Assembly: GCF_007858475.1 (NCBI RefSeq)
Contig: NZ_VIGX01000009.1
Span: forward strand, 62,001 to 126,000
Direction: 5' to 3'
Length of the DNA: 64,000 nt
Origin: Tsukamurella conjunctivitidis
GTDB lineage: Bacteria > Actinomycetota > Actinomycetes > Mycobacteriales > Mycobacteriaceae
Shown: in pieces, positions 41,651 to 61,981 of the stretch
Layout of the letters: each line of letters starts with the position of its first letter
Numbering within the stretch: position 1 is the first letter of the stretch
Made by a program: the position numbers and the translations under genes
Notes under the pieces: generated by a model
The model's input: the letters and a program-made list of their open reading frames with translations, nothing else
Database searches by the model: none
What the model was told of the DNA's origin: nothing

Positions 41651-42192
41651 CGGGTGGGTCCTTCCGCAGTGGGTGATGCACCGATCAGAATACGCGGCGA
41701 CAGGGGCCGGAAGAAGCTGCACCGTCGTCCGGTGACGCGTTCGCGCTGGTAGGAGCCCCAGCAGGTGACCGACGGGTAACAACTGGGGGTGGTTTTCTCT
41801 GCGCGACGGTGGCGGATTCACTCACGACACGCCCGAATGTCAGGTCGGTGCGACACGCGGGGGAATCTCGATCCACAACGATACACAGGCGAAGTACCCG
41901 GTAGGACCTGCAGCGATGCGGGGAAGCCCGGTGCGTATCCACAAGTTTTCCCCATCGGTCCACACAGTCCTCCCCACCCTGACCGCGGGCCCTCCACAAT
42001 CCGCTCACAGATCCATCCACAGCTCCGCTTTGCGGTCCCGACCCGAGCGCCTAGCGTTCACGTGCGTCCAGCGCGCGCCCGGGAGCGAGCTTCGTGAGCA
42101 ACGAACTTGTCAGGGTGTCGCGGTAGACCGAGAGAAGAACTGGTGAGCCTCGCCGCCGCACGGCGGCCCGGGGCGTGAGAGGTGGGTGCGCG
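41651..42192. other. gene-free region upstream of dnaB with five TCCACA words
   Basis: No convincing gene is seen in these 542 bases. Five copies of TCCACA, the core of DnaA boxes, start at 41872, 41938, 41959, 41993 and 42016, all on the same strand. The best is GTATCCACA, one change from the consensus TTATCCACA. The base content is visibly lower in GC than in the genes around it. It must also contain the dnaB promoter, which I could not place. Confidence 0.5.
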
Positions 42193-43599
42193 GTGTCGGT
42201 CACGGACGAGCAGGAGTTCACTCCGGGCCCTGTCGGACGTCCGGAGCCCGCCCCCGGTGCCCCGCCCGCCGAGGACTTCGGCCGCCAGCCCCCACAGGAC
42301 ATCGCGGCCGAGCAGTCCGTGCTGGGCGCCATGATGCTCTCCAAGGACGCCATCGCGGACGTCCTCGAGGTGATCACCCCCGGCGACTTCTACCGGCCCG
42401 CGCACCAGTCCGTGTACGACGCGATCCTCGACCTCTACGGCGCCGGCGAGCCCGCGGACGCCGTGACGGTGTCGGCGACGCTCGACCGCAAGGGCGAGCT
42501 GAAGCGCGTCGGCGGCGCGCCGTACCTCCACACCCTGATCTCCACCGTGCCCACCGCGGCCAACGCCGGCTACTACGCGGAGATCGTCGCGGAGAAGGCG
42601 ATCCTGCGGCGGCTCGTCGAGGCGGGGACGCGGATCGTCCAGTACGGCTACTCGGGCTCCGACGGTGCCGATGTCGCCGAGGTCGTGGACCGCGCGCAGG
42701 CCGCGGTCTACGACGTGACCGAGCGCAAGGCCTCCGAGGACTACGTGATCCTCGAGGAGCTGCTGCAGCCCACGATGGACGAGATCGACGCGATCGCCTC
42801 GCGCGGTGGCGTCAGTATGGGTGTCCCCACCGGCTTCACGGACTTCGACGCCCTCACCAACGGCCTGCACGCCGGCCAGATGATCATCGTCGCCGGCCGT
42901 CCCGGCGCCGGTAAGTCGACGATGGCGCTCGACGTGCTGCGATCCTGTGCCATCGAGCACCAGATGCCGGGGGTCCTGTTCAGCCTCGAGATGAGCAAGA
43001 CCGAGGTCGTGATGCGCCTGCTCTCCGCGGAGGCGCGGATCAAGCTGGCCGATATGCGTTCGGGCAAGATGTCCGACGACGACTGGACCCGCCTGGCCCG
43101 CCGCATGTCGGAGATCTCCGAGGCGCCGCTGTTCGTCGACGATTCGCCGAACCTCACGATGATGGAGATCCGTGCGAAGGCCCGCCGCCTCAAGCAGCGG
43201 CACGACCTCAAGCTCATCGTCATCGACTACCTGCAGCTGATGACCTCCGGCAAGAAGGTCGAATCGCGCCAGCAGGAGGTCTCGGAGTTCTCGCGGCAGC
43301 TCAAGCTGCTCGCGAAGGAGCTCGAGGTCCCGCTCATCGCCGTCGCACAGCTCAACCGTGGTCCCGAGCAGCGGACCGATAAGAAGCCCCAGGTCGCCGA
43401 TCTCCGCGAGTCCGGCTCGCTCGAGCAGGACGCCGACATGGTCGTGCTGGTGCACCGTCCCGACGCCTACGAGCGCGACGATCCGCGCGCCGGCGAGGCC
43501 GACTTCATCCTCGGCAAGCACCGCGCCGGCCCCACCGCCACCGTCACAGTCGCCCACCAGCTGCACTACTCCCGCTTCGTGGACATGGCCAAGGGCTGA
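42193..43599 (+). CDS. dnaB: replicative DNA helicase DnaB
   Basis: A 468-residue hexameric helicase that unwinds DNA ahead of the replisome. It has the N-terminal DnaG-interacting domain (PPQDIAAEQSVLGAMMLSKDAI), a linker, and the RecA-like motor with Walker A GRPGAGKST and Walker B LIVIDYLQLM; the FSLEMSK and QLNRGPEQR motifs are intact. No intein interrupts it, unlike in some mycobacteria. GTG 42193 follows GAGAGGTGGG. The gene is complete up to the usual end (SRFVDMAKG), and the transposon starts nine bases after its stop codon. Confidence 0.97.
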   Translation: MSVTDEQEFTPGPVGRPEPAPGAPPAEDFGRQPPQDIAAEQSVLGAMMLSKDAIADVLEVITPGDFYRPAHQSVYDAILDLYGAGEPADAVTVSATLDRKGELKRVGGAPYLHTLISTVPTAANAGYYAEIVAEKAILRRLVEAGTRIVQYGYSGSDGADVAEVVDRAQAAVYDVTERKASEDYVILEELLQPTMDEIDAIASRGGVSMGVPTGFTDFDALTNGLHAGQMIIVAGRPGAGKSTMALDVLRSCAIEHQMPGVLFSLEMSKTEVVMRLLSAEARIKLADMRSGKMSDDDWTRLARRMSEISEAPLFVDDSPNLTMMEIRAKARRLKQRHDLKLIVIDYLQLMTSGKKVESRQQEVSEFSRQLKLLAKELEVPLIAVAQLNRGPEQRTDKKPQVADLRESGSLEQDADMVVLVHRPDAYERDDPRAGEADFILGKHRAGPTATVTVAHQLHYSRFVDMAKG

Positions 43600-43607
43600 A
43601 CCCCGCT

Positions 43608-43676
43608 TGTAGGGTCCCAGATTCCGTGGCGGAATCCCAAGCTACGTGGCGGACAGTTGGCGGATCCGCCAACTGT
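43608..43676. repeat. Tn7-like left end with TnsB-type sites and a 24-base palindrome
   Basis: The end begins TGTAGGGTCCCAG. CGTGGCGGA occurs as direct repeats at 43625-43633 and 43645-43653, 20 bases apart. The second runs into a perfect 24-base palindrome at 43653-43676 centred on GGATCC, with half ACAGTTGGCGGA. ATTCCG-TGG-CGGAAT is a further inverted repeat. These are likely TnsB binding sites and may also hold the tns promoter. Confidence 0.65.
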
Positions 43677-43734
43677 TTGGGACACGCCGGGGCACGTCCC
43701 CGCATCTGAGGGCGGAAGTGGCACCGTCAAGACC

Positions 43735-44469
43735 ATGTCGCCCGGCAGCTCCGCGGGGACCGCGGTGGAAGTATCGTTCCGCCGCGGTGAGGACCTCTGT
43801 GAGCGGACCGTGGAGTGGAAGTCGGCCGCAATGGAGGACCTTCGCGAGGCAGCGCCGTGGCGCACATTTCGCTGGTATCGAGGGCAGAAACACTACTCGG
43901 GGTGGTACTGGTCGAGCACTACCCGCGATCTGGTGATCTATGAGTCCCGCCTGGAGCTCGCTAACCTGATGCTCGCAGACTTCGACGATCGGGTTCGGGG
44001 CATCGTGGCCCAGCCTTTCCTTCTCGCGACTGAGGTCGATGGTGTCCTGCGGAGGCACGTTCCGGACTTCCTACTCGATACTGATTCCGGCCCGGTCGTC
44101 GTTGACGTAAAGCCTGCTCGAAGGCTTGATAATGATGATGTTGCAAGGGTTTTGAACTTGACTCGGGATGTCGTCGAGGCCAAGGGGTGGCGATACGAGG
44201 TCGCCACCGAGCCGCCGCCGCGGAGGGCCGCGAATGTCAGATTCCTCGCTGGCTATCGGCGCGAGAGTGCAATCGTGCCTGACCATTGCGAGGCGGTTCA
44301 GGCGGTCGCTCAGGTGGGATTGACGATTGGTGCTCTCATCGATCGGATGCCAGATCGTCCTGACGCGAGCGTGCGAGCGGCGGTGCTGCACTTGATATGG
44401 CGGCGTCGGCTGCACGTCGACATTGACGCCGCAATCACTAGTCGCACTCAGATTTCGAGGGTCTTGTGA
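43735..44469 (+). CDS. tnsA: TnsA-type transposon endonuclease
   Basis: A 244-residue restriction-like nuclease that cuts the 5' strands of the transposon and so allows cut-and-paste movement. Catalytic positions of the PD-(D/E)xK fold are visible: Glu70 in YESRLEL, Asp111 in HVPDFLL, and Asp124-x-Lys126 in VVVDVKP. The C-terminal part (from about residue 165) is helical and should bind TnsC, as in Tn7. ATG 43735 is chosen because the earlier in-frame start lies inside the transposon-end palindrome; the ribosome site is weak. It overlaps tnsB by four bases. Confidence 0.85.
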   Translation: MSPGSSAGTAVEVSFRRGEDLCERTVEWKSAAMEDLREAAPWRTFRWYRGQKHYSGWYWSSTTRDLVIYESRLELANLMLADFDDRVRGIVAQPFLLATEVDGVLRRHVPDFLLDTDSGPVVVDVKPARRLDNDDVARVLNLTRDVVEAKGWRYEVATEPPPRRAANVRFLAGYRRESAIVPDHCEAVQAVAQVGLTIGALIDRMPDRPDASVRAAVLHLIWRRRLHVDIDAAITSRTQISRVL

Positions 44470-46613
44470 GTGGCGTTGAGCGGGTTGAGGTTGGCGGACG
44501 GTACATGTACGACGGCGAGGCGTTCGAGATCGTGGAGCTCGCCACGGCTAAGGGCGTCGTCGATGTGCTGGGGAAAAGCGCTGCAGGGCAGTACATGCGA
44601 GTTGGCCTCGCGGAGTTGCTGTCTTCGGTCCGGGGTCGGGTCCTCCCGACCGGCCCTGGCGTTTCGAGCACTGATGCAACCGAGCCTGCAGGCGTCATCT
44701 TCGGTGAGTTGTCCGCGGCAGAGCTTCAGAAGGTGACGGAACGCGCGGGGCACGTACGCGAGATTCTTACCGGGTACAGATCTGGCAGCGCGGAGACTGC
44801 GAGCAAGGGGGAGCCCAGGCCGGAGTTTTCCGGCGACCGCCCGCTCACTGACCGCTACGCAGCGAAGGCGCGCGAACTGGGCGTCGGCTTGCGATCTGTG
44901 GAGCGGTGGGTGTCCAAGTTCCGCACTGAAGGGCCCGCAGGCCTGGTAGACGCGCGACGTACGAGAGAGGCGGAGCCCTTCCCGTCTGTCGATCGGCGGT
45001 GGTTAGACACAGCTGTCGAAGTCATGGTTGAGCACGCCACCGAGTCGAAACCGTCCCGCACGATGGTGATGGCACGCGCGGAGGCACGGGTCTTGGCGCG
45101 ATTCGGAGAAGGGGTCGTCGCCATCCCGTCTCGGACAAATGCTTTCCGCGTTCTCGAGTATCTGGAACAGCGCTATCCCACATTTCGACTGTCTGCCAAG
45201 CGAAATCGCGACATCGCTGAGCGGCCAGAAGGCGTGTACGGCAAGCTCCGTCCAACTCGGCCTGGCGAGTACATGCTGATGGACACAACCAGGCTCGATG
45301 TCTTCGGGCTCGATCCTCTGACGCTGCGATGGGTGCAGGTCGAACTGACCGTCGCGATGGACTGGTACACCCGCTGCATCACCGGGTTGCGATTGACCCC
45401 GGTTTCCACGAAATCGGTTGATGTAGCGACCGTGATGTACGAGGTTTTCAGCCCACGTCCGGCCGGCGCGGACTGGCCGGAATACGCGGTGTGGCCAGCT
45501 CACGGAGTACCGCGGTCGGTACTTGTAGATGTCACCGCGGAGCGGCCAGCGGATGCGGCCGCTGGACCAGCTATTGTCCCTGAGACACTGGTCGTGGACC
45601 ATGGCAAGGTCTACCTCTCGAACCACGTGATGAGTGTGTGCCAGCGCTTCGGGATTTCGGTGCAGCCAGCTCGGCTCCGAACCGGCCGCGACAAAGGGCC
45701 AGTTGAGCGGTTCTTTCGTACTATTCGTGAAGATCTCCTCCAGGCCTTGCCGGGGTACAAGGGACCTGATGTCCACTCGCGCGGCGAGGATCCTGAGGGC
45801 GGAGCGTTCTTCTACATCGACGAGCTCGAAAGCATCATCCGCGAGTGGGTTGCGCAGGTCTACCACCACCGCCAGCATTCGAGCCTGCTCGACCCGCGAG
45901 TTCCGGGCTTACGTATGTCGCCCGCCGCGATGTTCGAGCACGGTGTTTCTCGCGCCGGATACATTGAGGCGCCTCGCGATCCGGACCTGGCATTCGAGTT
46001 CCTCAAGCCGGTATGGCGGAAAATTCTTCACTACGGTGTCGAGATCGGAGGCCGCCGCTACAACGGAGACGGGCTCAACGGCTACCGTAACCTCGCGAGC
46101 CGGTTCACCGGCGAGGCCAAGGGACGATGGCCGATCCACTGCGATCCCGACGACATCACCAAGGTGTACTTCCGGCGCCCAGATGAGCGGACCTGGCACA
46201 CATTGGTGTGGGAGCACGCACCGTCGATCGATATGCCGTTCAGCGAGGATGCACTGCTCTACGCAAGGAAGCTAGCAGCATCGAAGTACCGATTCCCCAA
46301 CGACCGCCTTGCGGTAGCTGACTTGTTGGAGCGGTGGAACATCGGCCTGGGCTCGACCCGAGTGGAACGGCGCATTGCATTGAGAATGTCACGCGAGACC
46401 GAACTGTCGCAGCGACCGCAGGGCGAAGCGCGTGTGGATCGACTGCCGTCGGTCGCCCGCGTGCTCGCTCCCGACCAGGACGAAAGCGATGTGCAAGCAG
46501 AGGACACCGCGATTGATCGCGGTCTCGACTACGCCGGCGAGGAAGGTGACGACGATCGATTCGACCAGGAAAACATCGATGACTTCTACTCCGACGCGCT
46601 GGAGGACGTATGA
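44466..46613 (+). CDS. tnsB: TnsB-type DDE transposase
   Basis: A 715-residue Mu/TnsB-family integrase that binds the transposon ends and joins the 3' strands to target DNA. The N-terminal 250 residues hold helix-turn-helix units (YAAKARELGVGLRSVERWVSKFRTEGPAGLVD). The RNase H fold shows Asp273 in MLMDTTRLDVF, Asp378 in LVVDHGKVYLS and Glu414 in KGPVERFFRTIRE, the normal D-D(35)E spacing. A Mu-type C-terminal beta-barrel follows, and the last 60 residues are acidic (ending DDRFDQENIDDFYSDALEDV), a tail that may contact TnsC. GTG 44466 overlaps the tnsA stop codon. GC content is lower than in the flanking chromosome. Confidence 0.92.
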   Translation: MSGVERVEVGGRYMYDGEAFEIVELATAKGVVDVLGKSAAGQYMRVGLAELLSSVRGRVLPTGPGVSSTDATEPAGVIFGELSAAELQKVTERAGHVREILTGYRSGSAETASKGEPRPEFSGDRPLTDRYAAKARELGVGLRSVERWVSKFRTEGPAGLVDARRTREAEPFPSVDRRWLDTAVEVMVEHATESKPSRTMVMARAEARVLARFGEGVVAIPSRTNAFRVLEYLEQRYPTFRLSAKRNRDIAERPEGVYGKLRPTRPGEYMLMDTTRLDVFGLDPLTLRWVQVELTVAMDWYTRCITGLRLTPVSTKSVDVATVMYEVFSPRPAGADWPEYAVWPAHGVPRSVLVDVTAERPADAAAGPAIVPETLVVDHGKVYLSNHVMSVCQRFGISVQPARLRTGRDKGPVERFFRTIREDLLQALPGYKGPDVHSRGEDPEGGAFFYIDELESIIREWVAQVYHHRQHSSLLDPRVPGLRMSPAAMFEHGVSRAGYIEAPRDPDLAFEFLKPVWRKILHYGVEIGGRRYNGDGLNGYRNLASRFTGEAKGRWPIHCDPDDITKVYFRRPDERTWHTLVWEHAPSIDMPFSEDALLYARKLAASKYRFPNDRLAVADLLERWNIGLGSTRVERRIALRMSRETELSQRPQGEARVDRLPSVARVLAPDQDESDVQAEDTAIDRGLDYAGEEGDDDRFDQENIDDFYSDALEDV

Positions 46614-47713
46614 CCGAAACCGCCGCGACACTCGACAATCTGACCCTCGCCCGAAAGGAAGGGTGGCAGAAGTTCGTCAACACCCCCGCACGTGTTCCAC
46701 CGGAGGCGTTGAACCGCGATGAACTCGACAGACTGACCGACAAGGAGCGCACCGACTACGACCGTGAGCGCCGCGAGTGGCACGCGAACCTCGGGCCCCT
46801 CAAGACCAGACAGCTGGTCGAGGTGCACGAAAACCTCTGGGATGTCATCGACTCCAACGCCCAGGACGGAGACAAACCGAAAGGCGCCGTTGCGATCGAC
46901 GCAGTACCCGGACTAGGGAAGACCACCGCGGTATTGAGCTTCGCCCGCGCGTTCCACCGCCGCGAAGTAGCCGAGAACGGCACTACGACCGAGGAAGGTC
47001 ATGAACGGTGGCCGGTGTGCCGGGTGGGACTGACCGGCAACACTGGCCTACGCGAGTTCAACCGGGCGATGCTCGCGTTCTACGCCCACCCAGGCGGCCG
47101 CCGCGGCAACGCCGCCGACTTCGCCCACCGAGCCCTGGACTGCGTGCTGGCATGCGAAACGAAGATCCTCATCGTCGATGATCTGCACTTCCTGCGGCTG
47201 CAGTCCACCTCCGGTGTCGAGGTCAGCAACCACTTCAAGTACATCGCCAACGAGTTCCCGTTGACGGTGATCTTCGCTGGCGTCGGTTTGGAGGCGCGGG
47301 GACTGTTCTCCGAGGGCAGTAGTGACCGAGATGCTCTTCTCGCGCAGACCGGCCGGCGTACAACGCGGCTGACAATGGATCCTTTCGGTGTCACCAATGA
47401 TGCTGGGCGCCGGGCATGGCGTCAGACGCTCAAGGCGATCGAGCAGCGGGTGGTTCTGGCCGAAAAGTATCCGGGCATGATCGCCGACGATCTCTCTGAC
47501 TACCTGTATGCCCGGTGTACCGGCCAGATCGGCTCACTGATGACCCTGATCAACCGGGGATGTCAGCGCGCGGTCCGGACTGGGTATGAGCGCCTCGACG
47601 AGGAACTGCTCGATCGGGTCAAGATCGACGAGGCATCGGAGAAGGCTCGCGAAGAACTGCGCCTGGCATTCGACAACGGCTGCCTGAGAACTCGCATCGG
47701 CAGGGCCGGATGA
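46610..47713 (+). CDS. tnsC: TnsC/TniB-type AAA+ ATPase
   Basis: A 367-residue AAA+ regulator that polymerises on target DNA and links the target selector to the transposase. Walker A is VPGLGKTT at about 99-106 and Walker B is LIVDDLHFL with acidic residues at 190-191. A sensor segment (FPLTVIFAGVGLE) and a C-terminal helical lid follow. The N-terminal 85 residues are charged and may bind TnsA and TnsB. It overlaps tnsB and tniQ by four bases each, so subunit amounts are coupled. Confidence 0.9.
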   Translation: MTETAATLDNLTLARKEGWQKFVNTPARVPPEALNRDELDRLTDKERTDYDRERREWHANLGPLKTRQLVEVHENLWDVIDSNAQDGDKPKGAVAIDAVPGLGKTTAVLSFARAFHRREVAENGTTTEEGHERWPVCRVGLTGNTGLREFNRAMLAFYAHPGGRRGNAADFAHRALDCVLACETKILIVDDLHFLRLQSTSGVEVSNHFKYIANEFPLTVIFAGVGLEARGLFSEGSSDRDALLAQTGRRTTRLTMDPFGVTNDAGRRAWRQTLKAIEQRVVLAEKYPGMIADDLSDYLYARCTGQIGSLMTLINRGCQRAVRTGYERLDEELLDRVKIDEASEKAREELRLAFDNGCLRTRIGRAG

Positions 47714-50304
47714 CAGTGCCACGTTCGCTTCCCTTCAGGGTGGACCCGGTGCCGGGCGAAGCGATCGATTCCTGGCTCGAAGCGATCGCCTTCCGCGCCG
47801 ACTCAGCGTGGGGAGACCTTCTCGACGCAGTCGACATACCTGCGCCTGCAGGTCTTGGGTACCCGCCCTGGACGATCGCACTCAGCGAGGCCGAAGTAGC
47901 CAGCCTGTGTGCCGCCACGGGCAGCGACGTCGAATTTTCGATGATGACCCTCACCCGGTTCGACGGGACCGCGGTGCGCATCGACTCGCAGTCGCGGAGT
48001 TTGCGCCGCGAAGTGGCATGGACCCGCCGCACCGGATCCCGCTTCTGCCCGCACTGCCTCCGAAGCAACGGCGGCCGATGGAAGCTCGAATGGCGACTCG
48101 GCTGGGCGTTTGCCTGCACCGACCATCGTTGTTTGCTGTCCGACGAATGCCCTCGCTGCCATAGAATTCCACGCCGCCGCCCGCTCCCGGGCCACTGCAC
48201 CCCGATCCCCGGCCGATGTGCATCGCCGGCGCAGGAAGGAGGCATTGGACGGGAGGCCCGACGGTGCGGCGCCGATCTCACGGCTGCCGAGGTCCTCGAC
48301 CTTCCTGGTGCGCACCCCGCTCTTCGGGCACAGGCCCTCATCGATCGAATCATCGACGACGGAGTCGTGCGGTTCGGGGTCTACGCGCGCCTTCCACAGC
48401 CTGCGGCTTCTGTGCTTGCCGACATTCGCGCCATCGGCGGCCGAGTACTGTCCTACGCCACCGACGAAGAGCTCTTAGCGCGAGTGGGACCCGAACTGGC
48501 GGTTGAGTACCGGGCAGTCGATGAACAAGGTGGTGCACGATCCGGACAAGTCCGACAGAGCCGCACGAAGCCGGCCCTCGAAGCGCCAGCGAGAGCCGTC
48601 ACAGCTGCGATTGGCGTCAGTGCCGCGATCGACGTTCTGCACTGCTCGGACCTCGCAGCCGCAGCTGATCGCCTGCGATGGTTAGTGACCTCGGCCCGGG
48701 AGACAGGCCTCAGTGTTCAACCGACGAACATCGGCTGGGGGACGCGAATCTCACCAATCCTGACCGGTGTCCAGCTCGCCGCGCTATCCCCGATGCTCGA
48801 CCCGTCCGACCAACTTCGCTACCGCACTCACTCCGACCTTCCCACCTTGGTGACCAGTGGGCGCGCAGAGCTACTAGCGCGTCACACGCCGACGCAATTT
48901 TGGGCCGGAATCAGTTTGCCCTTCACGGTCCCGGCGGCGAGGCGCACAATGATGCGCCTGGCATTGTCTGCGGCCTTACAGTTGGTGGGCACTCGGTTGA
49001 ATCTGACGGCCGCTGGTCAGCAGGTCGGAGGTCACCTGGCTGGCCATGCCCTATCCCGATTCCTACAGATTCTGGAGTCCGATCAACACTGGAGCGATGT
49101 GTGCGCGGGTCTGACACGCGTTGCCGATTACGTTGTCGAGCGCGGCGTACCGATCGACTATCAGCGCCGACGGGCACTCGATTGCACCGGTTTGCTTCCG
49201 GACGATGAGTGGAGGCAGATCTGCCACCGCACCGGAACGCCGTCACAGGGCGGCTCCGCCCGGGCGGCTGTTGTTCGGGCGTTTCTTCGCGAGGAGCTCA
49301 CAGGCGTCCCCACGGTTGACGGGTCCGCAGACTTGCTCGCTAAGATCGCCGCGTTTCCCCGCGATCTGACACCCGGCCTTCGGGACGAGCTGATCAACCA
49401 CGCACGGGTGTTCTTGGACGCCGCGGGCATCGATGAGGAACCAATTGCCTGGGAGCCGCCAATTGAGCTCCTCGCTGGTCTCGACCTCCCTGGCCCGCGA
49501 CCAGGACTGATCGACCGTGATCGCCTTCGAAAGCTCATCCGAGAACGCGACCTTCCCATCGGCGCCGCCGCCCGCGACCTCGGCACCACTGGCGAGGCGG
49601 TTCGCCTTGAGCTGATCGTCAATCCCCTCCCAGTCGATACCGGCCGCCGGAAGTACGCCAGCGCTCGAACGCAGCTCCCCCCGGAGGCTTTGACCCAGCT
49701 CTATCATCACGATCGCCTCACCTTGCGACAGATCGCTAACCGTATTGGAGTCAGTCGTCAGGTGATCCGTCGACTCCTCACCGAATACGAGATCCCGACG
49801 ATCCCCGCTACCGAGCGCGCGAAGATCATCATCGACCGCGACTGGCTCTACCAGCAATATGTCACCAACAGCAGGGCCCTCCCTGACATAGCCCGAGAAC
49901 TGGGCATGAGCACGGCGAACCTGGCTCGGTGGGCGAACAAACACGAGATTCCGATGAGACCCCGCGGCGGACCCAGTCACACCGCGGCCCTCGACGCCGC
50001 GGCCGCCGCGAAAACGGTGCCGCCGATCTTGCGCACAGCTGTTGCGGCCCAGGGCGGGCGCGACCGACTGGAACGGGCGAAAGCAGCATCGCGATTCCCC
50101 ACGCTGACCGAGGCTGCACACGCGTTAGGAACCAGCCAGGCAACCCTCACGAACCAGTTTCTCCGGCTCGAACGCGAGACCGGCGGAGCTCTGTTCGACC
50201 GTGCCGAGCGCAATCGCCCTATGACCCTGACCGCCCACGGACGGAGGGTGATCGACGCCATTCGAAAGCTGGACGGAACTGCTAGCGAGTCTCCCGGTGG
50301 GTAA
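47710..50304 (+). CDS. tniQ: TniQ/TnsD-type target selector with multiple C-terminal HTH motifs
   Basis: An 864-residue TniQ-family protein. The N-terminal TniQ domain carries zinc ligands Cys113 and Cys116 (FCPHC), Cys136, His139, Cys141, Cys147 and Cys150. The C-terminal 280 residues contain four HTH-like segments near residues 614 (IGAAARDLGTTGEAVRLE), 670 (LRQIANRIGVSRQVIRRLL), 722 (LPDIARELGMSTANLARWA) and 798 (LTEAAHALGTSQATLTNQF). The last looks like the start of a LysR regulator. This is the layout expected of a TnsD that reads a long fixed site, here presumably the end of dnaB. Many TniQ proteins lack these domains. It is the last gene of the tns operon. Confidence 0.85.
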   Translation: MTVPRSLPFRVDPVPGEAIDSWLEAIAFRADSAWGDLLDAVDIPAPAGLGYPPWTIALSEAEVASLCAATGSDVEFSMMTLTRFDGTAVRIDSQSRSLRREVAWTRRTGSRFCPHCLRSNGGRWKLEWRLGWAFACTDHRCLLSDECPRCHRIPRRRPLPGHCTPIPGRCASPAQEGGIGREARRCGADLTAAEVLDLPGAHPALRAQALIDRIIDDGVVRFGVYARLPQPAASVLADIRAIGGRVLSYATDEELLARVGPELAVEYRAVDEQGGARSGQVRQSRTKPALEAPARAVTAAIGVSAAIDVLHCSDLAAAADRLRWLVTSARETGLSVQPTNIGWGTRISPILTGVQLAALSPMLDPSDQLRYRTHSDLPTLVTSGRAELLARHTPTQFWAGISLPFTVPAARRTMMRLALSAALQLVGTRLNLTAAGQQVGGHLAGHALSRFLQILESDQHWSDVCAGLTRVADYVVERGVPIDYQRRRALDCTGLLPDDEWRQICHRTGTPSQGGSARAAVVRAFLREELTGVPTVDGSADLLAKIAAFPRDLTPGLRDELINHARVFLDAAGIDEEPIAWEPPIELLAGLDLPGPRPGLIDRDRLRKLIRERDLPIGAAARDLGTTGEAVRLELIVNPLPVDTGRRKYASARTQLPPEALTQLYHHDRLTLRQIANRIGVSRQVIRRLLTEYEIPTIPATERAKIIIDRDWLYQQYVTNSRALPDIARELGMSTANLARWANKHEIPMRPRGGPSHTAALDAAAAAKTVPPILRTAVAAQGGRDRLERAKAASRFPTLTEAAHALGTSQATLTNQFLRLERETGGALFDRAERNRPMTLTAHGRRVIDAIRKLDGTASESPGG

Positions 50305-50683
50305 AACGGTGCACCAAGTTCCTGAACCTGGCCTCTCAGGTGGTGAAGACGTGGTTCGGAATGCCCTAGCCTCCACGCACGTCGTCGCGTCGGTAGGGTC
50401 AGGAGCGAACCGCGATTCCACGTCCCGGAACCTGTCATGGTGAGGCTCTAGAATAGAGACAGCTAAGCCCGGCTCGTTTGCCGACGAACCGGGCTCAGCT
50501 GAACAACCGAATCACCACTCCGAGGGTTCGCCCCTCGATACCGTGACCGTTGCGAATGTCTTTGGATGACGCCTCCGATGGTAGACGGTGTGCGCGGGTT
50601 CGCCAAACACCGGAACGCTGGTGTGGGCGAGCGATGCGGACCTTGGCGTGGTGGCTCATCCACACTGCCTTGAGGAGGCACCG
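50305..50683 (+). other. gene-free region after tniQ with terminator and candidate promoter
   Basis: The 379 bases hold the hairpin at 50461-50500 and no convincing gene. TAGAAT at about 50451 could be a -10 hexamer for the next gene, but no matching -35 was found. Confidence 0.4.
50461..50500 (+). terminator. terminator-like hairpin after the tns operon
   Basis: AGCCCGGCTCG (50466-50476) pairs with 50485-50495 with one mismatch, extended by AGCT/AGCT at the base. It lies about 160 bases after tniQ. Confidence 0.55.
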
Positions 50684-51841
50684 TTGACCAACGACAGTCG
50701 CGACTCTGATCGCACAACCGATACCACCAGCACTGAACGGGCTGGAGGTGCCCGGCCCATCCAGGTCGGGCAGCACCGGCTCGAGGGCATGTCGACGGAC
50801 CTGTTCGTTCAGGTCCCGACGACCTTGATCGACCCGACTCGCGCGCTGATCGCGTCGGAAGGTGTCGGCGCGGTCTACTCCGTGCCGTGGCAGTCCCGGA
50901 CCCACCGCTCCGCGGTGGCGAGGACCGCGGCGGATCAGACCCGCAAGAAGTGCCCCGAAGCAGCGTTGCTGCTCGACGCGAACCTCTACAGCGGCCGGCA
51001 GCGGAAGGTGGCGACGGCGGAGCCGACCCGCGACTGGATCACCGTGCAACGTAGCGCGGGCCTGACGTGGGCATTGACCGATTCCGGCTATGTGGCCAAG
51101 GGCGACACCGCTGGGCTGCGGACCACCCTGAAGACGGCGGCCCGCTTCGGTGGACAGGTGATTGCGGCGCTGCCGATCGCGAGCTGGTGGCTTTCGCACG
51201 CCGCCGATTCGCTCCGGTCTGAGATCAACGCGCACGGCATCCCCGTGGCGTTGATGGTCGAAGACACCGACGACCCGTTCGACCGGACCAACGTCGTGAC
51301 CGGGCTGGTGCACGTCCTCACCGCAGATGTCCCGGTGCTGCTCCTGCGCAGTGACACGGCGGGGTTGGGGGCGCTGGCGTACGGCGCCGCAGGCGCGGCG
51401 ATGGGGTCATCGACCACCTACCGGCACATCTACCCCGACATCGGCGGGGGCGGCACCAGCGGGTCGGTGTCGTTCATCCTCCCGGAGCTTCTCGCGTACA
51501 CGTCGCTGACCGCGTTCGAGCGGCATTACCTCAAGGACAAGTCCCACGCCGCGTGGTGCTGCGACTGCGCACTCTGCGGTGGACGGGACCTGACCTGGAT
51601 CCGCACGGCTGACATCCCGAAGGCAGCAGCGTTCTCGCATTCGGTCTCCGCGGTCGCGATGCTCGGTCGCGGTTTGGCCACCGCTATCGCCGCCCACAAC
51701 GGCCCGCAGGCGTGGACGGCGATGTGCGAGGCCGCCCACGAGAGCAACATCGAGATCGAGAAGCTCACCGGCGGGGACTGGAAGCGCAAACGCGCCCTGT
51801 CCGCCTGGATCGGCGCTACGCCGGAGCCGGCTGCGGCGTGA
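50684..51841 (+). CDS. TIM-barrel protein resembling tRNA-guanine transglycosylases (TGT/DpdA-like)
   Basis: A 385-residue protein whose strand pattern (ALLLDANLY, WALTDSGYV, VIAALPIASWW, VALMVEDTDD, VPVLLLRSD, GAAMGSS) suggests a TIM barrel. Near residue 300 it has WCCDCALCGGRDL followed by a histidine about 20 residues later, the CxCxxC...H zinc site of queuine/archaeosine tRNA-guanine transglycosylases. Relatives include DpdA, which places 7-deazaguanine into DNA. No deazaguanine synthesis or Dpd genes are seen in the window, so the substrate is open. The start is TTG 50684 because AGGAGG stands five bases before it; the first 45 residues are Ser/Thr/Asp-rich. Its end overlaps the convergent unknown gene by 26 bases. 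The fold call is from pattern only. Confidence 0.5.
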   Translation: MTNDSRDSDRTTDTTSTERAGGARPIQVGQHRLEGMSTDLFVQVPTTLIDPTRALIASEGVGAVYSVPWQSRTHRSAVARTAADQTRKKCPEAALLLDANLYSGRQRKVATAEPTRDWITVQRSAGLTWALTDSGYVAKGDTAGLRTTLKTAARFGGQVIAALPIASWWLSHAADSLRSEINAHGIPVALMVEDTDDPFDRTNVVTGLVHVLTADVPVLLLRSDTAGLGALAYGAAGAAMGSSTTYRHIYPDIGGGGTSGSVSFILPELLAYTSLTAFERHYLKDKSHAAWCCDCALCGGRDLTWIRTADIPKAAAFSHSVSAVAMLGRGLATAIAAHNGPQAWTAMCEAAHESNIEIEKLTGGDWKRKRALSAWIGATPEPAAA

Positions 51842-52439
51842 TCGGCACCCCTGTCGCGAGGGCGTGAGCGAATAGCCGCTCCTCCCAGTACCGCACCGCG
51901 ACGATCCGCGGAGGATCGGCAACCTTCGATCCCCGCACCAGTAGTTCCTCGCCGGCGTGAGAGGTATGCACCACGCTCACGTCGGCGAGGTCCGCCGCCG
52001 TCAAGCTCAGCGCCGTGGGCCGCCGCTCGGTCAGCACCACGGTCTCGCCGAACCCGCGAAGCTCACTGGCGACATACAGGGCCCTCTTCCACTGCCCGGT
52101 GGCGACGAACCCGACGATGCTCAACGGCGCCGCCGGCGGCGCCCCCGCGCCCTCCGCCGGGCACATCTCCCACAGCTCGAGGACCTGCGCGTCGAGCATC
52201 GGTCCCGCCCCGGACGACATCCGTTCGGCGACGGTCGACGACCATCGGACCACCGGATACCCGCGAAGCCCCGACAGTTCGGTCCGCGGCAACACCGACA
52301 CCGAGCTATCGAGGACGAGCTCCGCAGCCGCGACCACGGCCGCGTCGACCAGATCCGCCGGCGCGACGGCAGGGACGTCGAACAGGGGGAGCTGACCCGC
52401 CTCTGCGTGGATTGACCGGGTACGTCGCCGCGCCGTCAC
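51816..52439 (-). CDS. protein of unknown function paired with AbrB-like regulator
   Basis: A 207-residue protein I do not recognise. It has a basic lead, QLPLFDVPAVAPADLVDAAVV, then YPVVRWSSTVAERM and a mixed alpha/beta part with LSIVGFVATGQWKRALYVASELRGFGETVVLTERR, and ends near AVRYWEERLFAHALA. The nearly bare QLPLFD motif recalls short peptide motifs that bind the sliding clamp, which is speculation. GTG 52439 overlaps the stop codon of the AbrB-like gene by four bases, so the two are translated together. It converges on and overlaps the TGT-like gene, suggesting one module. Confidence 0.6.
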   Translation of the reverse strand: MTARRRTRSIHAEAGQLPLFDVPAVAPADLVDAAVVAAAELVLDSSVSVLPRTELSGLRGYPVVRWSSTVAERMSSGAGPMLDAQVLELWEMCPAEGAGAPPAAPLSIVGFVATGQWKRALYVASELRGFGETVVLTERRPTALSLTAADLADVSVVHTSHAGEELLVRGSKVADPPRIVAVRYWEERLFAHALATGVPITPQPAPA

Positions 52440-52807
52440 TGGTCTTCCTCTCCCACGGGCGCGGGCTCCGGCGCGATGACCCGCGACGCGGCGAACAGAT
52501 GAATGCGGTCCTCCAGGGCCAGGAACGCCACGACGCTCCCAATGTCCAGACCGACCGAGTCGAGGACCGCCGCCGGCAGCGCGATCTGTCGCGACGTCCG
52601 CAGCCGCCGCGGACGATCCGGGTTACCTCGTACGGACGGCTTCGTCCCGCGCGGGCCGCGAGTGGGAATGATCTCGACGATCCTCTGGTCGGCGACGACA
52701 CCGATCCGGACCCACGAAGGCTGCCGCACTCCGGATGCCTTCGCCACCTTCGCTGGGATGGTGATCCGGCGGAAGCTGTCGATCGTCCGGGGACCCGTGG
52801 GAAGCAT
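52436..52807 (-). CDS. double SpoVT/AbrB-type DNA-binding protein
   Basis: A 123-residue protein with two swapped-hairpin motifs: DSFRRITIPAKVAKASGV at about residues 10-27 and RTSRQIALPAAVLDSVGLDIGSVVAFLALEDRIHLF in the second half. Both follow the AbrB pattern in which a strand, R-x-(I/T)-P, and a short helix form the DNA-binding dimer. Such proteins act as antitoxins or transition-state regulators. ATG 52807 stands seven bases after TAAAAT, a good -10 hexamer, so the message is probably leaderless. An inverted repeat overlaps this promoter, consistent with autoregulation. Confidence 0.7.
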   Translation of the reverse strand: MLPTGPRTIDSFRRITIPAKVAKASGVRQPSWVRIGVVADQRIVEIIPTRGPRGTKPSVRGNPDRPRRLRTSRQIALPAAVLDSVGLDIGSVVAFLALEDRIHLFAASRVIAPEPAPVGEEDQ

Positions 52808-52825
52808 ACTGCTGATTTTAGCAGT
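52808..52825 (-). promoter_or_regulatory. promoter and inverted-repeat operator of the AbrB-like gene
   Basis: ACTGCT-GATTTT-AGCAGT directly abuts the start codon. Its centre holds TAAAAT on the coding strand (52820-52815), a -10 hexamer seven bases from the ATG. Confidence 0.55.
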
Positions 52826-52891
52826 CAAGGACCGAACAGTCACTGGTACTGCGGATTACAGCGCATGTTCCTCGTGCCGACCGCTGTCCCG

Positions 52892-53011
52892 CTAAGGCAC
52901 GGAAGCGCCGTCGTCGAGGGCTTCGAGGACGGCGCGGAGGAACTCAGCCGCAGTGAGGGGGATGCCGCGTTCGCGGAGCTGTTGCTCTAGCTGCTGCTCG
53001 ATGTGGTCCAC
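52892..53011 (-). CDS. possible small protein (39 aa)
   Basis: GTG 53011 opens a 39-residue frame starting VDHIEQQLEQQLRERG and ending ALDDGASVP. It is Glu/Gln/Leu-rich and likely helical, with sensible codon use, but has no ribosome site that I can see and no known relatives. It lies in an otherwise empty 300-base stretch between the AbrB-like gene and arsR. Confidence 0.3.
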   Translation of the reverse strand: MDHIEQQLEQQLRERGIPLTAAEFLRAVLEALDDGASVP

Positions 53012-53111
53012 GCGTGTCGATCCTGCCGCAGGCGATCGTGCTGGTGCTGTGCCGGGGAGCCTCGCGACGGTGTCGTGCAGCCACTACCTGCGCGCGAGAG
53101 GCGCGTTCGCG

Positions 53112-53465
53112 CTAGCAGCACGTGGCCAGGACGGCCCGGAGCGCTTCAAGGGAGTCAGGTTCGGCCCGGTAGAAGACGTTGATCCCGCGCCGCTCGGAGC
53201 TGACGAGGCCGGCCTTCTTGAGCTGGCTCAGGTGGTGACTGACGGTCGCCGACGACAGGCCCACCGTGTCGGCGAGGTCGCCGGTGCTGATTTCGCCTGG
53301 ACGTGCGGCCATGAGGATCGAGATCAGCTGGATCCGGGCCGGGTCGGCGAGGGCCTTGAGGCGCAGGGCGAGCTCGAGTGCCGCGGCCTCGTCCATCACG
53401 CCGGCGGCCAGCGGAGCACAGCAGATCGGGGCGCTGATGTCGACGACGGGGAGCGTCTTGGGCAT
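53112..53465 (-). CDS. arsR: ArsR-family metalloregulator, divergent from arsI/cadI
   Basis: A 117-residue ArsR/SmtB repressor. The winged helix is GDLADTVGLSSATVSHHLSQLKKAGLVSSERRG. It has a cysteine pair at the N-terminus (APICCAP) and another at the C-terminus (LATCC) but lacks the classic CVC in the recognition helix, so the metal or metalloid site must be built from the ends, as in CmtR-like variants. It should release DNA on binding As(III), Cd(II) or a similar thiophilic ion. It is transcribed away from the ArsI/CadI gene across a shared 14-base palindrome. ATG 53465 is chosen over an upstream TTG. Confidence 0.85.
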   Translation of the reverse strand: MPKTLPVVDISAPICCAPLAAGVMDEAAALELALRLKALADPARIQLISILMAARPGEISTGDLADTVGLSSATVSHHLSQLKKAGLVSSERRGINVFYRAEPDSLEALRAVLATCC

Positions 53466-53486
53466 ACGCTTCAATCTACCTACTCG

Positions 53487-53515
53487 TTGACATATGTCAA
53501 AGCGTGGTCTAGAAC
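53487..53515. promoter_or_regulatory. divergent promoters sharing one ArsR operator
   Basis: TTGACATATGTCAA (53487-53500) is a perfect palindrome whose two ends are the -35 hexamers of opposite promoters. Forward: TTGACA, 17 bases, TAGAAC (53510-53515). Reverse: TTGACA, 16 bases, TAGATT. One bound repressor would close both. Confidence 0.75.
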
Positions 53516-53560
53516 TGAACGAGCAACAGTTAGATGTATGTCGAAGCCTCGGAGGTTCTC

Positions 53561-54022
53561 ATGTCCCGCGTCCAGCTCGCCCTCAATGTCGATGACCTCG
53601 ATCAGTCGATCGCGTTCTACACCAAGCTGTTCGGCACGGGCCCGGCGAAGGTCAAGCCCGGTTACGCCAACTTCGCCGTCGCCGACCCGGCGCTCAAGCT
53701 GGTCCTGCTGGAGAACCCCGGCCAGGGCGGCAGCATCAACCATCTCGGCGTCGAGGTGGACTCCAGCGACAAGGTGCACGCTGAGATCGCCCGCCTCACC
53801 GAGGAGCAGCTGTTCACCGAGGAGGAGATCGGCGCCACCTGTTGCTTCGCCACCCAGGACAAGGTCTGGGTCACCGCCCCCGACGCCGAGCGTTGGGAGG
53901 TCTACACCGTCCTCGCTGACGCCGAGACCTTCGACGGCGGACACACTCCGGCGACGACAGCCGAGGACTCCGAAGCGACGCCGGCCGCGTGCTGCACCCC
54001 TGCGGCGGCGAACTGCTGCTAG
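53561..54022 (+). CDS. arsI: ArsI/CadI-type vicinal-oxygen-chelate dioxygenase
   Basis: A 153-residue VOC-fold protein. ArsI enzymes cleave the carbon-arsenic bond of trivalent organoarsenicals with Fe(II) and oxygen; the mycobacterial relative is called CadI for its induction by cadmium. Visible are the N-terminal MSRVQLALNVDDLDQSIAFY, metal ligands around His61 (INHLGVEV) and Glu113 (RWEVYTV), and the vicinal pair Cys94-Cys95 (GATCCFATQD) that binds As(III). The tail is rich in Ala and cysteine (AACCTPAAANCC), which may add metal-binding capacity. GGAGG precedes ATG 53561. Confidence 0.88.
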   Translation: MSRVQLALNVDDLDQSIAFYTKLFGTGPAKVKPGYANFAVADPALKLVLLENPGQGGSINHLGVEVDSSDKVHAEIARLTEEQLFTEEEIGATCCFATQDKVWVTAPDAERWEVYTVLADAETFDGGHTPATTAEDSEATPAACCTPAAANCC

Positions 54023-54190
54023 TCCGCCCTCGATCGATGGCCGTCACCGCTTCGGGTGGCGGCCATCGACGCGGTTACCAGAGAGCGCTGGCGCGAAACG
54101 CAGTAGCGGGCCGCACTGCGCTGTACCGGCTGGTTCTCGCGGTCGGCGTCCCCCTGGGCGGAGGCTGCGCTGGAGGAGAGGCATCTGCGG

Positions 54191-54646
54191 TTAGGCGCAG
54201 TCGCGTGGGTGGAATCCCTCGATGCGGTCGATCGGGGTAAAGACAGGGCAACCGACTTGGTCGTTTCGGTTGAGGATCACGTTCGATGCCGCCATCACTT
54301 CGCAGGCTGCGAGCCCGCGGCTAGCGGCGAGCAGCATGGAAAGCCCGTAGAACGTTGCTGCCGCCGGCGGGGTGAGCGCGAAGAACGCGAAGAAGACCAG
54401 CGTGTTAGTGGCCATGGCCCACGCGCCTGTGACCCGCAGTGGTGCCGAATCACGACCCCGAAGTACAACCGCGAGGGTGATCGCGGCAGGGACCAGTGCG
54501 ACCGCGATGATGAGGTCGATTGTGGAAGGTCCGATGATGATCCCGGCTCCCACGAAAGCGGCACCGATCACTGTCCGGGCGGCGGTGCCCCATCGGCCGA
54601 TCTCTCTTGTCCTGCGTGCGAGGGGCGATTTCACTGTGTTGGTCAT
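54191..54646 (-). CDS. membrane protein of the mercury cluster, unknown type
   Basis: A 151-residue protein with three to four transmembrane segments (VIGAAFVGAGIIIG, LIIAVALVPAAITLAVVL, TLVFFAFFALTPPAAATFYGLSMLLA). Cysteines occur in LAACEV, VGCPVFTP and at the end (RDCA). It is the third gene after merA and merB and overlaps the merB stop codon by four bases. Mercury operons usually encode a small transporter (MerT, MerC, MerE, MerF) to bring Hg(II) in; this one has no CC pair in the first helix, so it is not a standard MerT. A transport role is inferred from position only. Confidence 0.65.
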   Translation of the reverse strand: MTNTVKSPLARRTREIGRWGTAARTVIGAAFVGAGIIIGPSTIDLIIAVALVPAAITLAVVLRGRDSAPLRVTGAWAMATNTLVFFAFFALTPPAAATFYGLSMLLAASRGLAACEVMAASNVILNRNDQVGCPVFTPIDRIEGFHPRDCA

Positions 54647-55305
54647 TGGGCGGTTCCTTCGTGCTGATCCGGCGAGCAGCATCCGGCCTGTCGGGCTGTG
54701 TCCGGGCTGATGAGCGCTTGTTCAGCGAGAGCTTTCCCGAGGGCGTGCGCGTGGGTGATGTCGAGGAGTTGGTTGCCGGGATTTTCGCGCGTCCACGTTT
54801 GGGCATCGTGTGGGGAGGCGAAGAAGTGCACTTGGTTGCAGAACGACGTTCGAAGCGAGCTGAGGTCATCGGGGTCGACGAGCGATAGCACTGCGGTGTC
54901 GGGTTCGATGCTGGTCACGGTGTCTGCCGTGACAGAGATTCTGATCGTTTGACCGCTCGCGGGTGAGGTCGACTCGATGGTGGCTGACTGGTTTAGGAGT
55001 GTGGGGAAGATCAGGGTGTCGAGTGCGCACCACGTGAACAGTTCGTGACCTGCGACGGTGAACCGATGCGGGGTCGGACGGAGGGTCAGTCCTTGCCCGA
55101 CTATTTGGTCGCGATCGTCGTATTCGGTGTCGGAAACGGATTGGAGTCGTTCCCGTACATCGGGTTCCGACAGTCCGGCCGCAGCTGCTAAGTCCTCTAC
55201 GCTGACGGGGTTTCCCTTGGAGAGGAGCCTGAGTAGGGGAACCAGGACTGCCGGATCGAGGCCGGACCCCTCGGGGGTGATGAGTCGATCGAGTGGATTG
55301 GTCAT
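54643..55305 (-). CDS. merB: organomercurial (alkylmercury) lyase
   Basis: A 220-residue MerB. It breaks the carbon-mercury bond by protonolysis and hands Hg(II) to MerA. The catalytic set Cys93, Asp96 (TWCALDTL) and Cys156 (SFCNQVHFF) has the same spacing as the Cys96/Asp99/Cys159 triad of the R831b enzyme. An N-terminal winged-helix-like part precedes it. The C-terminus has an extra CC pair. It follows merA by 38 bases; the ribosome site is weak. Confidence 0.93.
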   Translation of the reverse strand: MTNPLDRLITPEGSGLDPAVLVPLLRLLSKGNPVSVEDLAAAAGLSEPDVRERLQSVSDTEYDDRDQIVGQGLTLRPTPHRFTVAGHELFTWCALDTLIFPTLLNQSATIESTSPASGQTIRISVTADTVTSIEPDTAVLSLVDPDDLSSLRTSFCNQVHFFASPHDAQTWTRENPGNQLLDITHAHALGKALAEQALISPDTARQAGCCSPDQHEGTAQ

Positions 55306-55343
55306 TGTCTGGGACTTCGCTTGCGGATCGGTGGAATCAGGAA

Positions 55344-56768
55344 TTAGGAAGCGCAGCAGGAGAGCTGGGCGATGTCGGTGCTGAAGGATTGTGCGGCGAT
55401 TTTGATGCCCTCGGCCATGGTCAGGTAGGGCGCCCATGTCCGGGCGACCTGCTCGACGGTCATCCTTGCTTCGAGGATGTAGACCCCAGCGGCGGCGATC
55501 TCGCCGGCACTATTCGCGACCGCCGAAATTCCGAGGACTCGATGACTATCGGAGTCTGCGATGAGCTTGATGAAGCCTCGGGTATCTCGGTCAACTTGGG
55601 CCCGGGGTACGTGAGTGAGCGGAAGAAGCGAGCTCGTGTACCGGATTCCGCTTGCGAGGGCCTGCGTCTCGGTCATACCGACGCTCCCGATTGCCGGACT
55701 GGTGAACATCACGCGCGGCAGGTGCGTGTAGTCCAACGACCGCGGGGTCTGTCCGAACATGTTGTCGGCGACCGTTGTGCCTTGCGCGGCTGCGACATAG
55801 ACGAACTCGGGATGGCCGGTCACATCGCCCGCTGCCCACACACGCGGGTTTGATGTTCTGAGCTGATTCGACACGAGGATCGCGCCGCTGGTGCTCGTGT
55901 CGACTCCAACCGTCTCCAGATTCAAACCTCTAGTATTCGGGGTTCTGCCCGTCGCGACGAGCAGCTTCGCCGCACGGAAGTCGCCTTGTCCACCAGGGCT
56001 GGAGGCGGTCACGACGACCTCACCCGCCTCGGTGTCGACCGAGGTCGCGGTCGCGAGCTGCACTACCTCGATGTGCTCGTCAGCGAGCGCTTCCAGGAGA
56101 GCATCTGCGACGTCAGCATCTTCGGCCGAAGCGATCCTGGACCGCACCAAAACGGTTACCTTCGCCCCCAGTCGCGCGAAGAGTTGCGCCTGCTCGAGCG
56201 CGATGAACCCGCCGCCGATCACTAGGAGTGATTCCGGGACTGCGGTCAACTCCATCGCGGTCGTCGACGTCAGGTAGTCGACCAGATTGAGTCCGGGAAT
56301 CGACGGAATCGACGGTTGGGCCCCTGTTGCCACCAAGTACCGTCGAGCAATTATCGTCTCGGTAGTCCCATCGGGAGCTGTGACCACCAGCGATGGCGCT
56401 GCCCGCGTTCCCGCGAACGCGGCCGCACCCTGGACGCGGCGCCAGCCGTACGAGTCCGCAACGGCAACGTACTTCTCTGACCGCATCGACTCTGCCAAGC
56501 GCCGTGTCCCCGCCGCCAGGGCGGCCATATCTACCGGCACGGCGGTCGCACCGACCCCCGGGAACCGGCCAGCATCAGAGACCGTGTGCTGTGCCTGCGC
56601 CGCGGCGATCAACGCCTTCGACGGCACGCAACCGGTATTCACACAGGTGCCGCCGAAAGTGCCTCGCTCGATCATCACCACGGACTTGCCCATGGCTGTT
56701 GCGCGGATCGCCGCCGCCATCGCTGCAGCACCCGAACCAACGATCGCAAGATCAAACTCTTCACTCAT
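55344..56768 (-). CDS. merA: mercuric reductase
   Basis: A 474-residue flavoprotein disulfide reductase that reduces Hg(II) to volatile Hg(0) with NADPH. FAD binding is at EEFDLAIVGSGAAAMAAAIRA; the redox pair is Cys42 and Cys47 in GGTCVNTGCVPS; the C-terminal CC pair (QLSCCAS) passes mercury to the active site of the partner subunit. It lacks the N-terminal MerP-like domain found in many MerA proteins. It is divergent from merR across a typical mer operator and heads the merA-merB-membrane protein operon. Confidence 0.95.
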   Translation of the reverse strand: MSEEFDLAIVGSGAAAMAAAIRATAMGKSVVMIERGTFGGTCVNTGCVPSKALIAAAQAQHTVSDAGRFPGVGATAVPVDMAALAAGTRRLAESMRSEKYVAVADSYGWRRVQGAAAFAGTRAAPSLVVTAPDGTTETIIARRYLVATGAQPSIPSIPGLNLVDYLTSTTAMELTAVPESLLVIGGGFIALEQAQLFARLGAKVTVLVRSRIASAEDADVADALLEALADEHIEVVQLATATSVDTEAGEVVVTASSPGGQGDFRAAKLLVATGRTPNTRGLNLETVGVDTSTSGAILVSNQLRTSNPRVWAAGDVTGHPEFVYVAAAQGTTVADNMFGQTPRSLDYTHLPRVMFTSPAIGSVGMTETQALASGIRYTSSLLPLTHVPRAQVDRDTRGFIKLIADSDSHRVLGISAVANSAGEIAAAGVYILEARMTVEQVARTWAPYLTMAEGIKIAAQSFSTDIAQLSCCAS

Positions 56769-56791
56769 GTCACCATCATCAACCCTCCAGT

Positions 56792-56806
56792 ACCCTTGAA
56801 GGTCAA
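56792..56806 (-). promoter_or_regulatory. mer operator/promoter between merA and merR
   Basis: ACCCTTGAAGGT (56792-56803) is the imperfect dyad, and TTGACC (56806-56801, reverse strand) is the -35 element. The next -10-like bases (GTTGAT) lie about 18 bases on, the overlong spacer typical of MerR-activated promoters. Confidence 0.65.
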
Positions 56807-56833
56807 GCCCAGAATCCGGACAGGGAGGACCCG

Positions 56834-57223: not shown

Positions 57224-57234
57224 CCCAGACACGC

Positions 57235-59199: not shown

Positions 59200-59242
59200 C
59201 GACCGAGCAGGCCGGGAAGCCCGAGAAGCGGGAGAAAGTCGG

Positions 59243-61959: not shown

Positions 61960-61981
61960 CTGCCGCCTACACCTACCGGAC

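Follow-up and report, generated by a model that had tools for sequence, protein, structure and literature searches.

In Tsukamurella conjunctivitidis, a Tn7-like transposon lies directly behind dnaB, the gene for the replicative DNA helicase, and we put at roughly 90% the probability that this is a 50-kb element with its home at the dnaB 3′ end. The window, as we call the whole 64,000-nucleotide (nt) stretch analyzed here (contig NZ_VIGX01000009.1; G000:C343:62001-126000), comes from a genome of 5.07 Mb in 343 contigs (G000). Comparison with related genomes shows TGTAGGG/CCCTACA ends, mostly 5-bp duplications, one orientation and repeated insertions 31–38 nt from a conserved Phe codon, and on these sequence data dnaB is likely a safe landing site for this kind of element. 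From the spacing, orientation and domain make-up it appears most likely that the target selector TniQ recognizes the coding end of dnaB and positions the insertion by way of TnsC. The original prediction, made from the window alone, had proposed the dnaB 3′ end as a fixed site of the Tn7 type, and the repeated insertions in several genomes support it.

The dnaB gene (42175..43599, + strand; 474 amino acids (aa)) encodes the Pfam DnaB_C and DnaB N-terminal domains, has orthologues in sister genomes, and serves as the attachment-site gene, running uninterrupted by the element to a TGA stop codon at 43597-43599. Eight bases past this stop, at 43608, a TGT end begins with TGTAGGGTCCCAGATTCCGTGGCGG and is followed by tnsA, tnsB, tnsC and tniQ, all on the + strand, with tnsA starting 135 bases behind dnaB and a 4-base overlap at each junction of the operon. 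The endonuclease subunit gene tnsA (43735..44469, from the ATG at 43735; 244 aa) matches the PF08722 TnsA N-terminal domain at 30.8 bits (cut-off 26.5) and NCBIfam NF033179 'TnsA_like_Actin' at 235 bits (cut-off 110; E 4.6e-70); a TnsA profile search of the Protein Data Bank gave no match. The DDE transposase gene tnsB (44466..46613; 715 aa) encodes a protein that aligns to TnsB of solved structures (best E 3.8e-18), and its residues 133-676 align to TnsB of the solved transpososome 8aa5 with D, D and E in place, which we take to be the catalytic residues. The AAA ATPase regulator gene tnsC (46610..47713; 367 aa) matches TniB and AAA_22 as well as the solved VchTnsC 7rzy (E 6.7e-6), and tniQ (47710..50304; 864 aa) encodes a tnsD-like target selector (PF06527, E 5e-19; PADLOC TniQ, E 2.5e-21) with a TniQ domain at residues 8-143 and several helix-turn-helix matches at ~660-855. 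The TGT end close behind a whole dnaB, the overlapping operon right after it and the intact catalytic residues had all been called from the window, and all three are borne out. TnsA, TnsB, TnsC and TniQ/TnsD genes thus stand side by side as in a Tn7-like element. As in Tn7 itself (TnsABC plus TnsD, with attTn7 behind glmS), TnsA and TnsB are separate proteins accompanied by TnsC and a TniQ-domain selector, the target duplication is 5 bp, and the insertion lies behind an essential gene that is left whole.

The ends of Tn7 are TGT/ACA; the termini here are TGT/ACA as well, and both ends start TGTAGGGTCCC. The tnsA-proximal end (43608..43680) reads TGTAGGGTCCCA and then has TGGC cores as possible TnsB sites at end positions 20, 40 and 51, and directly before it stands the dnaB-side copy of the target-site duplication, CCGCT (43603..43607), whose second copy is outside the window. 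The other end lies at G000:C343:155649 (93649 on the window scale), where CGGGACCCTACA is followed by CCGCT, which gives an element of 50,042 bp. An ACA end followed by CCGCT beyond the window had been forecast and was found; the forecast that its repeats would match CGTGGCGGA failed, as they are not copies of it. When we searched the whole genome on both strands for the reversed end TGGGACCCTACA, two exact places were returned, the tnsA-proximal end and one beside the second end, and four places at one mismatch, among them C343:155638-155649, the second end itself. Seven of the 16 Tsukamurella genomes carry, at 100% identity, a 210-bp stretch ending one base before that end; in G014 and G001 it is 70–79% similar, in part only. 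Inside the window, 12-mer and repeat searches for a second end gave chance-level matches alone, and the CCGTGGCGGA motif at up to one mismatch was not enriched (23 matches against a shuffle mean of 17.4; 14 of 100 shuffles reach 23). The two ends have just TGGC cores in common, at positions 20, 40, 51 and 112 of one and 20, 71 and 96 of the other; these are candidate TnsB sites only, and the shared first position is a weak likeness in GC-rich DNA. The evidence for the element ends is comparative. Between the transposon end and tnsA there is also a perfect 24-base palindrome (ACAGTTGGCGGATCCGCCAACTGT; 43653-43676), perhaps an operator or paired TnsB sites.

Nine of the 16 Tsukamurella genomes have a TniQ at 47% identity or more: seven at 93–100%, G001 at 75% and G014 at 49–52% split over two frames, with G015 carrying two copies, one at 100% and one at 47–55% in pieces. 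Each of the nine has a TGTAGG end behind dnaB, the same as or similar to that in the window, at 7, 8, 8, 8, 9, 9, 10, 10 and 14 bp from the stop codon, and every TniQ above this threshold is at dnaB, directly or stacked behind another copy. G011 retains an end remnant 7 bp behind dnaB, and no end was found behind dnaB in the remaining six genomes (G002, G005, G006, G007, G009 and G012). All insertions have one orientation, with the tnsA-proximal end toward dnaB, and six of the nine genomes have perfect 5-bp duplications that differ from one another (G000 CCGCT, G004 TGTTG, G008 CCCTC, G010 CCTGC with its two ends on separate contigs, G013 CCCGG and G014 ACCGC). In the comparison of genomes with and without the element that the original prediction had proposed, the dnaB loci differ, and four of ten right flanks align at 80–90% identity to one of the six element-free genomes: those of G003, G013 and an older element of G000 behind dnaB in G005, and that of G004 behind dnaB in G002.

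Nucleotide identity of the operon reaches 100, 99.93 and 100% in three strains (L049, L046 and L259, the last measured in two blocks) against 92.1, 90.0 and 94.2% for dnaB, and dnaB with its upstream DNA is 82–94% identical in the same strains. The operon of L047 is 99.94% identical, with dnaB outside that locus, and the more distant L048 has 77.5% for the operon and 92.0% for dnaB. Because the operon is 99.9–100% identical where dnaB is only 90–94% identical, the Tsukamurella copies, except L048 and the 47–55% copies, are on this comparison separate, recent insertions of one element. A single insertion at dnaB in an ancestor, passed on by descent and by homologous recombination around that gene with no site-specific targeting, would also place the element on the same side of the same gene and leave operons near-identical between species, but we rejected it as very improbable on the differing duplications and the identities; the distances to the stop codon differ between genomes too, as do the right flanks, with their four matches to an empty site.

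Site-specific targeting is further supported by the spacing between the insertions and a conserved motif at the 3′ end of the dnaB coding sequence (43570..43599, + strand; SRFVDMAKG and stop in the window), the proposed TniQ recognition site. In a set of 18 insertions, from which we left out the copy in a Mycobacterium metagenome-assembled genome (MAG; L050), the distance from the Phe codon of SRF to the transposon end is 31–38 nt (standard deviation 1.76; 17 of 18 within 31–35), compared with 4–14 nt from the stop codon (standard deviation 2.58); with L050 included, the spreads become 3.04 and 4.06. A dnaB gene of normal length cannot separate an anchor at the stop from one at the codon, whereas the shorter genes of G269 and G187 and the longer gene of G465 can, and there the ends lie 34, 35 and 34 nt from the codon against 13, 14 and 4 nt from the stop. 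Three plasmid remnants outside this set lie behind dnaB genes ending SxFRDLAR, and measured from the last Phe codon of those genes they start at 31, 32 and 38 nt. Because the end lies 31–38 nt from a conserved codon, the selector probably reads the dnaB coding sequence, as TnsD reads glmS. One gene, one orientation and one spacing thus recur, with L050 as the single outlier. TnsD of Tn7 recognizes the final 36 bp of the glmS coding sequence, and the transposon inserts ~25 bp past them (PMC2918618). The present element differs in its target, dnaB and not glmS, and in inserting nearer the stop codon, at 4–14 bp compared with ~20 bp.

In the mechanism that we propose, the long TniQ would be a selector of the TnsD type: its C-terminal helix-turn-helix region would bind the final ~40 bp of the dnaB coding sequence, SRFxxMA(K/R)G, and its N-terminal TniQ domain would recruit TnsC. 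TnsC would in turn bring TnsA and TnsB, which would excise the element and join it a set distance downstream; joining would fall in the non-coding gap, so that dnaB remains whole. We infer this reading of dnaB by TniQ from the spacing, the orientation and the domain make-up. A CRISPR-associated, RNA-guided Tn7-like element with a guide against dnaB has a chance close to nil: TniQ of CRISPR-associated transposons (CASTs) is shorter than the 864-aa protein here, which has its own helix-turn-helix region, and no cas gene is listed in the sister element, whose gene table is incomplete, and no search for a CRISPR array was made. What speaks for a guide is that CASTs are themselves Tn7-like and use TniQ. 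Protein selection of the proposed kind has parallels in Tn7-like elements at parE, tRNA genes and comM, where TniQ/TnsD or TnsF reads a conserved gene (PMC11406308 and PMC10293859).

The same arrangement occurs on plasmids. TniQ relatives are present on 59 plasmid records, counting the mislabelled T. tyrosinosolvens NZ_LR134456 ('plasmid 14' of NCTC13231), which we rejected as plasmid evidence and took as a chromosome piece because it carries rpsF-ssb-rpsR-dnaB. The Mycolicibacterium alvei plasmid pJCM12272 has an intact dnaB-tnsA-tnsB-tnsC-tniQ array with the end 7 bp behind the plasmid dnaB. A dnaB gene at E <1e-100 is found on 129 plasmid records, 104 of them with <60% identity, and 12 further plasmid dnaB regions were tested with a profile of four mycobacterial ends. 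It detected remnants immediately following dnaB in three of them, M. adipatum pMYC1 (E 9e-12), M. intracellulare ZUERICH-2 (E 5e-11) and, weakly, MC045 (E 1.5e-4), and none in the other nine. The pMYC1 and ZUERICH-2 remnants lie 31 and 38 nt from the Phe codon, the chromosomal distance. Searched against the whole plasmid collection, 90 bases of the M. alvei end matched five records, three of them behind dnaB (M. alvei, pMYC1 and ZUERICH-2); the other two, M. abscessus subsp. bolletii plasmid 1 and M. chubuense pMYCCH.01, have one common non-dnaB neighbourhood (L264:5270, L294:5001), either one inherited insertion or a second plasmid site. TniQ had no match in the phage collection, and on viral contigs it matched 11 loci over 42–84 residues, in the helix-turn-helix region only.

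These placements bear on the idea that the region behind dnaB is a general hot spot, or that the element is drawn by replication structure in a TnsE-like manner, and not by TniQ reading dnaB. We consider this distinctly improbable: imperfect duplications in three of nine genomes and relatives on plasmids at other sites would fit it, but it is opposed by the one orientation, the narrow range of distances from a coding motif and the finding of the element at the corresponding position behind dnaB genes on plasmids, outside the chromosomal context. Because a chromosome always has dnaB and many actinobacterial plasmids have their own, one TniQ could serve both, and dnaB might then be a two-way address at which the same selector places the element at a safe chromosomal site and on a transferable plasmid, with neither TnsE nor a guide RNA; we hold this idea tentatively, at slightly less than even odds. 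Such a double use would give a testable account of both the settling and the movement of an element that has a single selector.

Outside Tsukamurella, a profile of TnsA built from five sequences matched 76 of 401 genomes sampled from the family, at 112 listed places, and 11 of 396 sampled from the phylum (three shared). We fetched 80 stretches (68 from the family sample, 10 from the phylum sample, one repeat and one, G006, for dnaB alone) and counted 78; these cover about two thirds of the family-sample places, and contig ends truncate some of the stretches. TnsA or a remnant of it stands directly behind dnaB in eight stretches (G269, G187, G033, G183, G259, G231, G011 and G465), seven of them outside Tsukamurella and one, G465, from another class; G033, G259, G231 and G011 keep TnsA or part of TnsA alone. 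Further dnaB-adjacent copies are those of the Mycobacterium MAG and the M. alvei plasmid. A quick tree built from 76 TnsB rows puts eight of the nine dnaB-labelled rows in one clade of 23 (SH-aLRT 100), among 15 rows with no dnaB label, and the ninth, G183, outside that clade on a long branch. The non-dnaB share is not a rate, since eight of those 15 rows were added from plasmids and one, L188, offers next to no upstream sequence for a verdict. Judged from this tree, dnaB homing would either be old and have changed several times or have arisen more than once. Two more Tsukamurella TnsA genes (G013 and G001) belong to a distant TnsB branch, with no dnaB in their fetched stretches.

Several observations weigh against a home at dnaB. 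The original prediction had proposed counting how often such genes lie beside dnaB and had named relatives at other sites as evidence to the contrary: all Tsukamurella TniQ proteins of at least 47% identity are at dnaB, yet adjacency is a minority overall, at 8 of 78 TnsA stretches, and relatives of the same TnsB clade do lie elsewhere outside the dnaB-homing lineages. On the tree the dnaB label needs six changes (shuffled mean 8.5), at least four of them forced by well-supported branches, and a fragment in G348 that at 67% identity is the nearest TnsA outside Tsukamurella does not lie near dnaB. The narrower spread around the codon depends on three dnaB genes that amount to about two independent cases, since the G269 and G187 elements are near-identical; the starts of two of the three plasmid remnants (the 31- and 32-nt cases) are estimates from profile positions; and the L050 copy is off the ruler at 22 nt, with its end inside the stop codon. 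As to the duplications, G003 has none (CCCGT/CCTAC), G001 shares just four bases (GCTG), and the inner junction of G015 also shares just four, with TCGTT outside the stacked pair and TCGT between. Six of the ten right flanks have no empty counterpart in the six element-free genomes searched, and an IS21-type istAB pair splits tnsB in T. tyrosinosolvens NCTC13231 (L259:7428-10009). At the L050 junction (L050:2517-2570; TniQ 39%), GGAT is followed by TGTAG at the dnaB stop; because the end is inside that codon, the element's own TGTAG supplies the TAG, and dnaB gains an extra Leu.

New insertions can stack at dnaB. In T. conjunctivitidis, the CCGCT past the second end continues straight into GTAGGGTCCCA, as if the element had inserted one base inside the TGT of an older element, whose duplication should therefore read CCCGC. 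On contig C32, a right end of a related kind does have CCCGC after it, and past this point the flank aligns over 1.3 kb to the sequence behind dnaB in G005. We infer a stack across C343 and C32 from these sequences, the two contigs not being joined. With no second TniQ found in G000, the older element would be present as a remnant. G015 has dnaB first, then the 47–55% element and then the 100% element, here too with a contig break in between. The G000 arrangement suggests that the site is reusable, with a newcomer inserting beside dnaB and pushing the older copy away, and stacked insertions at one site are a possible way in which such islands grow.

The original prediction had not known the dnaB site as a described one, and our literature searches agree in finding no paper that names dnaB as a Tn7 site; these full-text searches took in neither supplements nor preprints and few subscription papers, and a table may hold such an entry. 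The term dnaB is absent from the main text of PMC11406308, PMC10293859 and PMC8649781, and in the one paper found to contain 'Tn7-like', 'TniQ' and 'dnaB' together (PMC10991518), DnaB is a negative control. Among the closest known systems are the NF033179 TnsA family, whose cut-off the TnsA score passes, and, as a possible relative, the Actinobacteria-dominated Tn7-like clade of Benler et al. 2021; none of that clade had been experimentally characterized as of 2021, according to that paper (PMC8649781). The dnaB site would lengthen the short list of homing sites of Tn7 by an essential gene, in such a branch, and it suggests that actinobacteria have a natural address for integration guided by a protein. 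Tn7706 of Rhodococcus erythropolis NI86/21 is a 19-kb Tn7-like transposon with tnsA, tnsB, tniQ and tniB, described in nine copies, six on plasmids and one of these on a plasmid of strain YL-1; it differs in that its copies lie at different sites, and dnaB is absent from the main text of its description (PMC12915292). A YL-1 plasmid carries a TniQ 39.4% identical to that in the window, presumably the one of Tn7706.

Downstream of tniQ, the cargo part inside the window (50305..64000, + strand) belongs to an element that continues to 93649 on the window scale, and it includes merB (54643-55437, − strand), a merA-like gene (55344-56876, − strand) and a merR-like gene (56393-57223, + strand), all identified with Pfam; the sister element is annotated with mercury, arsenic, cadmium and other heavy-metal genes. 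Behind tniQ, a 417-aa open reading frame (50588-51841) has no match in Pfam, NCBIfam or PADLOC, and T. tyrosinosolvens lists a gene of similar place and size. Tn7 has tnsE at the position behind its TniQ-type gene; the gene table of the sister element, known to be incomplete, lists no TnsE.

Some relatives at other sites also lie behind a gene in the same orientation. The RHA1-type elements L183 and L185 are behind a secreted cutinase-like gene (named from its sequence, without a family search), and a group with TniQ at ~30% identity is behind a cell-wall hydrolase-like gene in five of six stretches with visible flanks (L189-L191, L193 and L194; not L195), a gene annotated as peptidoglycan DD-metalloendopeptidase in L262. 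Several of these elements are on Rhodococcus plasmids, and both genes are possible further homing sites; the copies on Rhodococcus opacus pROB01 and pDK4 have differing neighbourhoods. We rejected the C-terminal LysR-like helix-turn-helix of TniQ as a general dnaB reader because the main match stops at 760 in the dnaB-adjacent L182 and L184, yet reaches 854-855 in some elements at other sites. Inteins in dnaB are known, and dnaB reading frames broken near residue 246-254 in the manner of an intein were seen in L255, L256, L187, L207, L182, L196, L257 and L260, whose carriers are two Tsukamurella genomes, other genera and the M. alvei plasmid.

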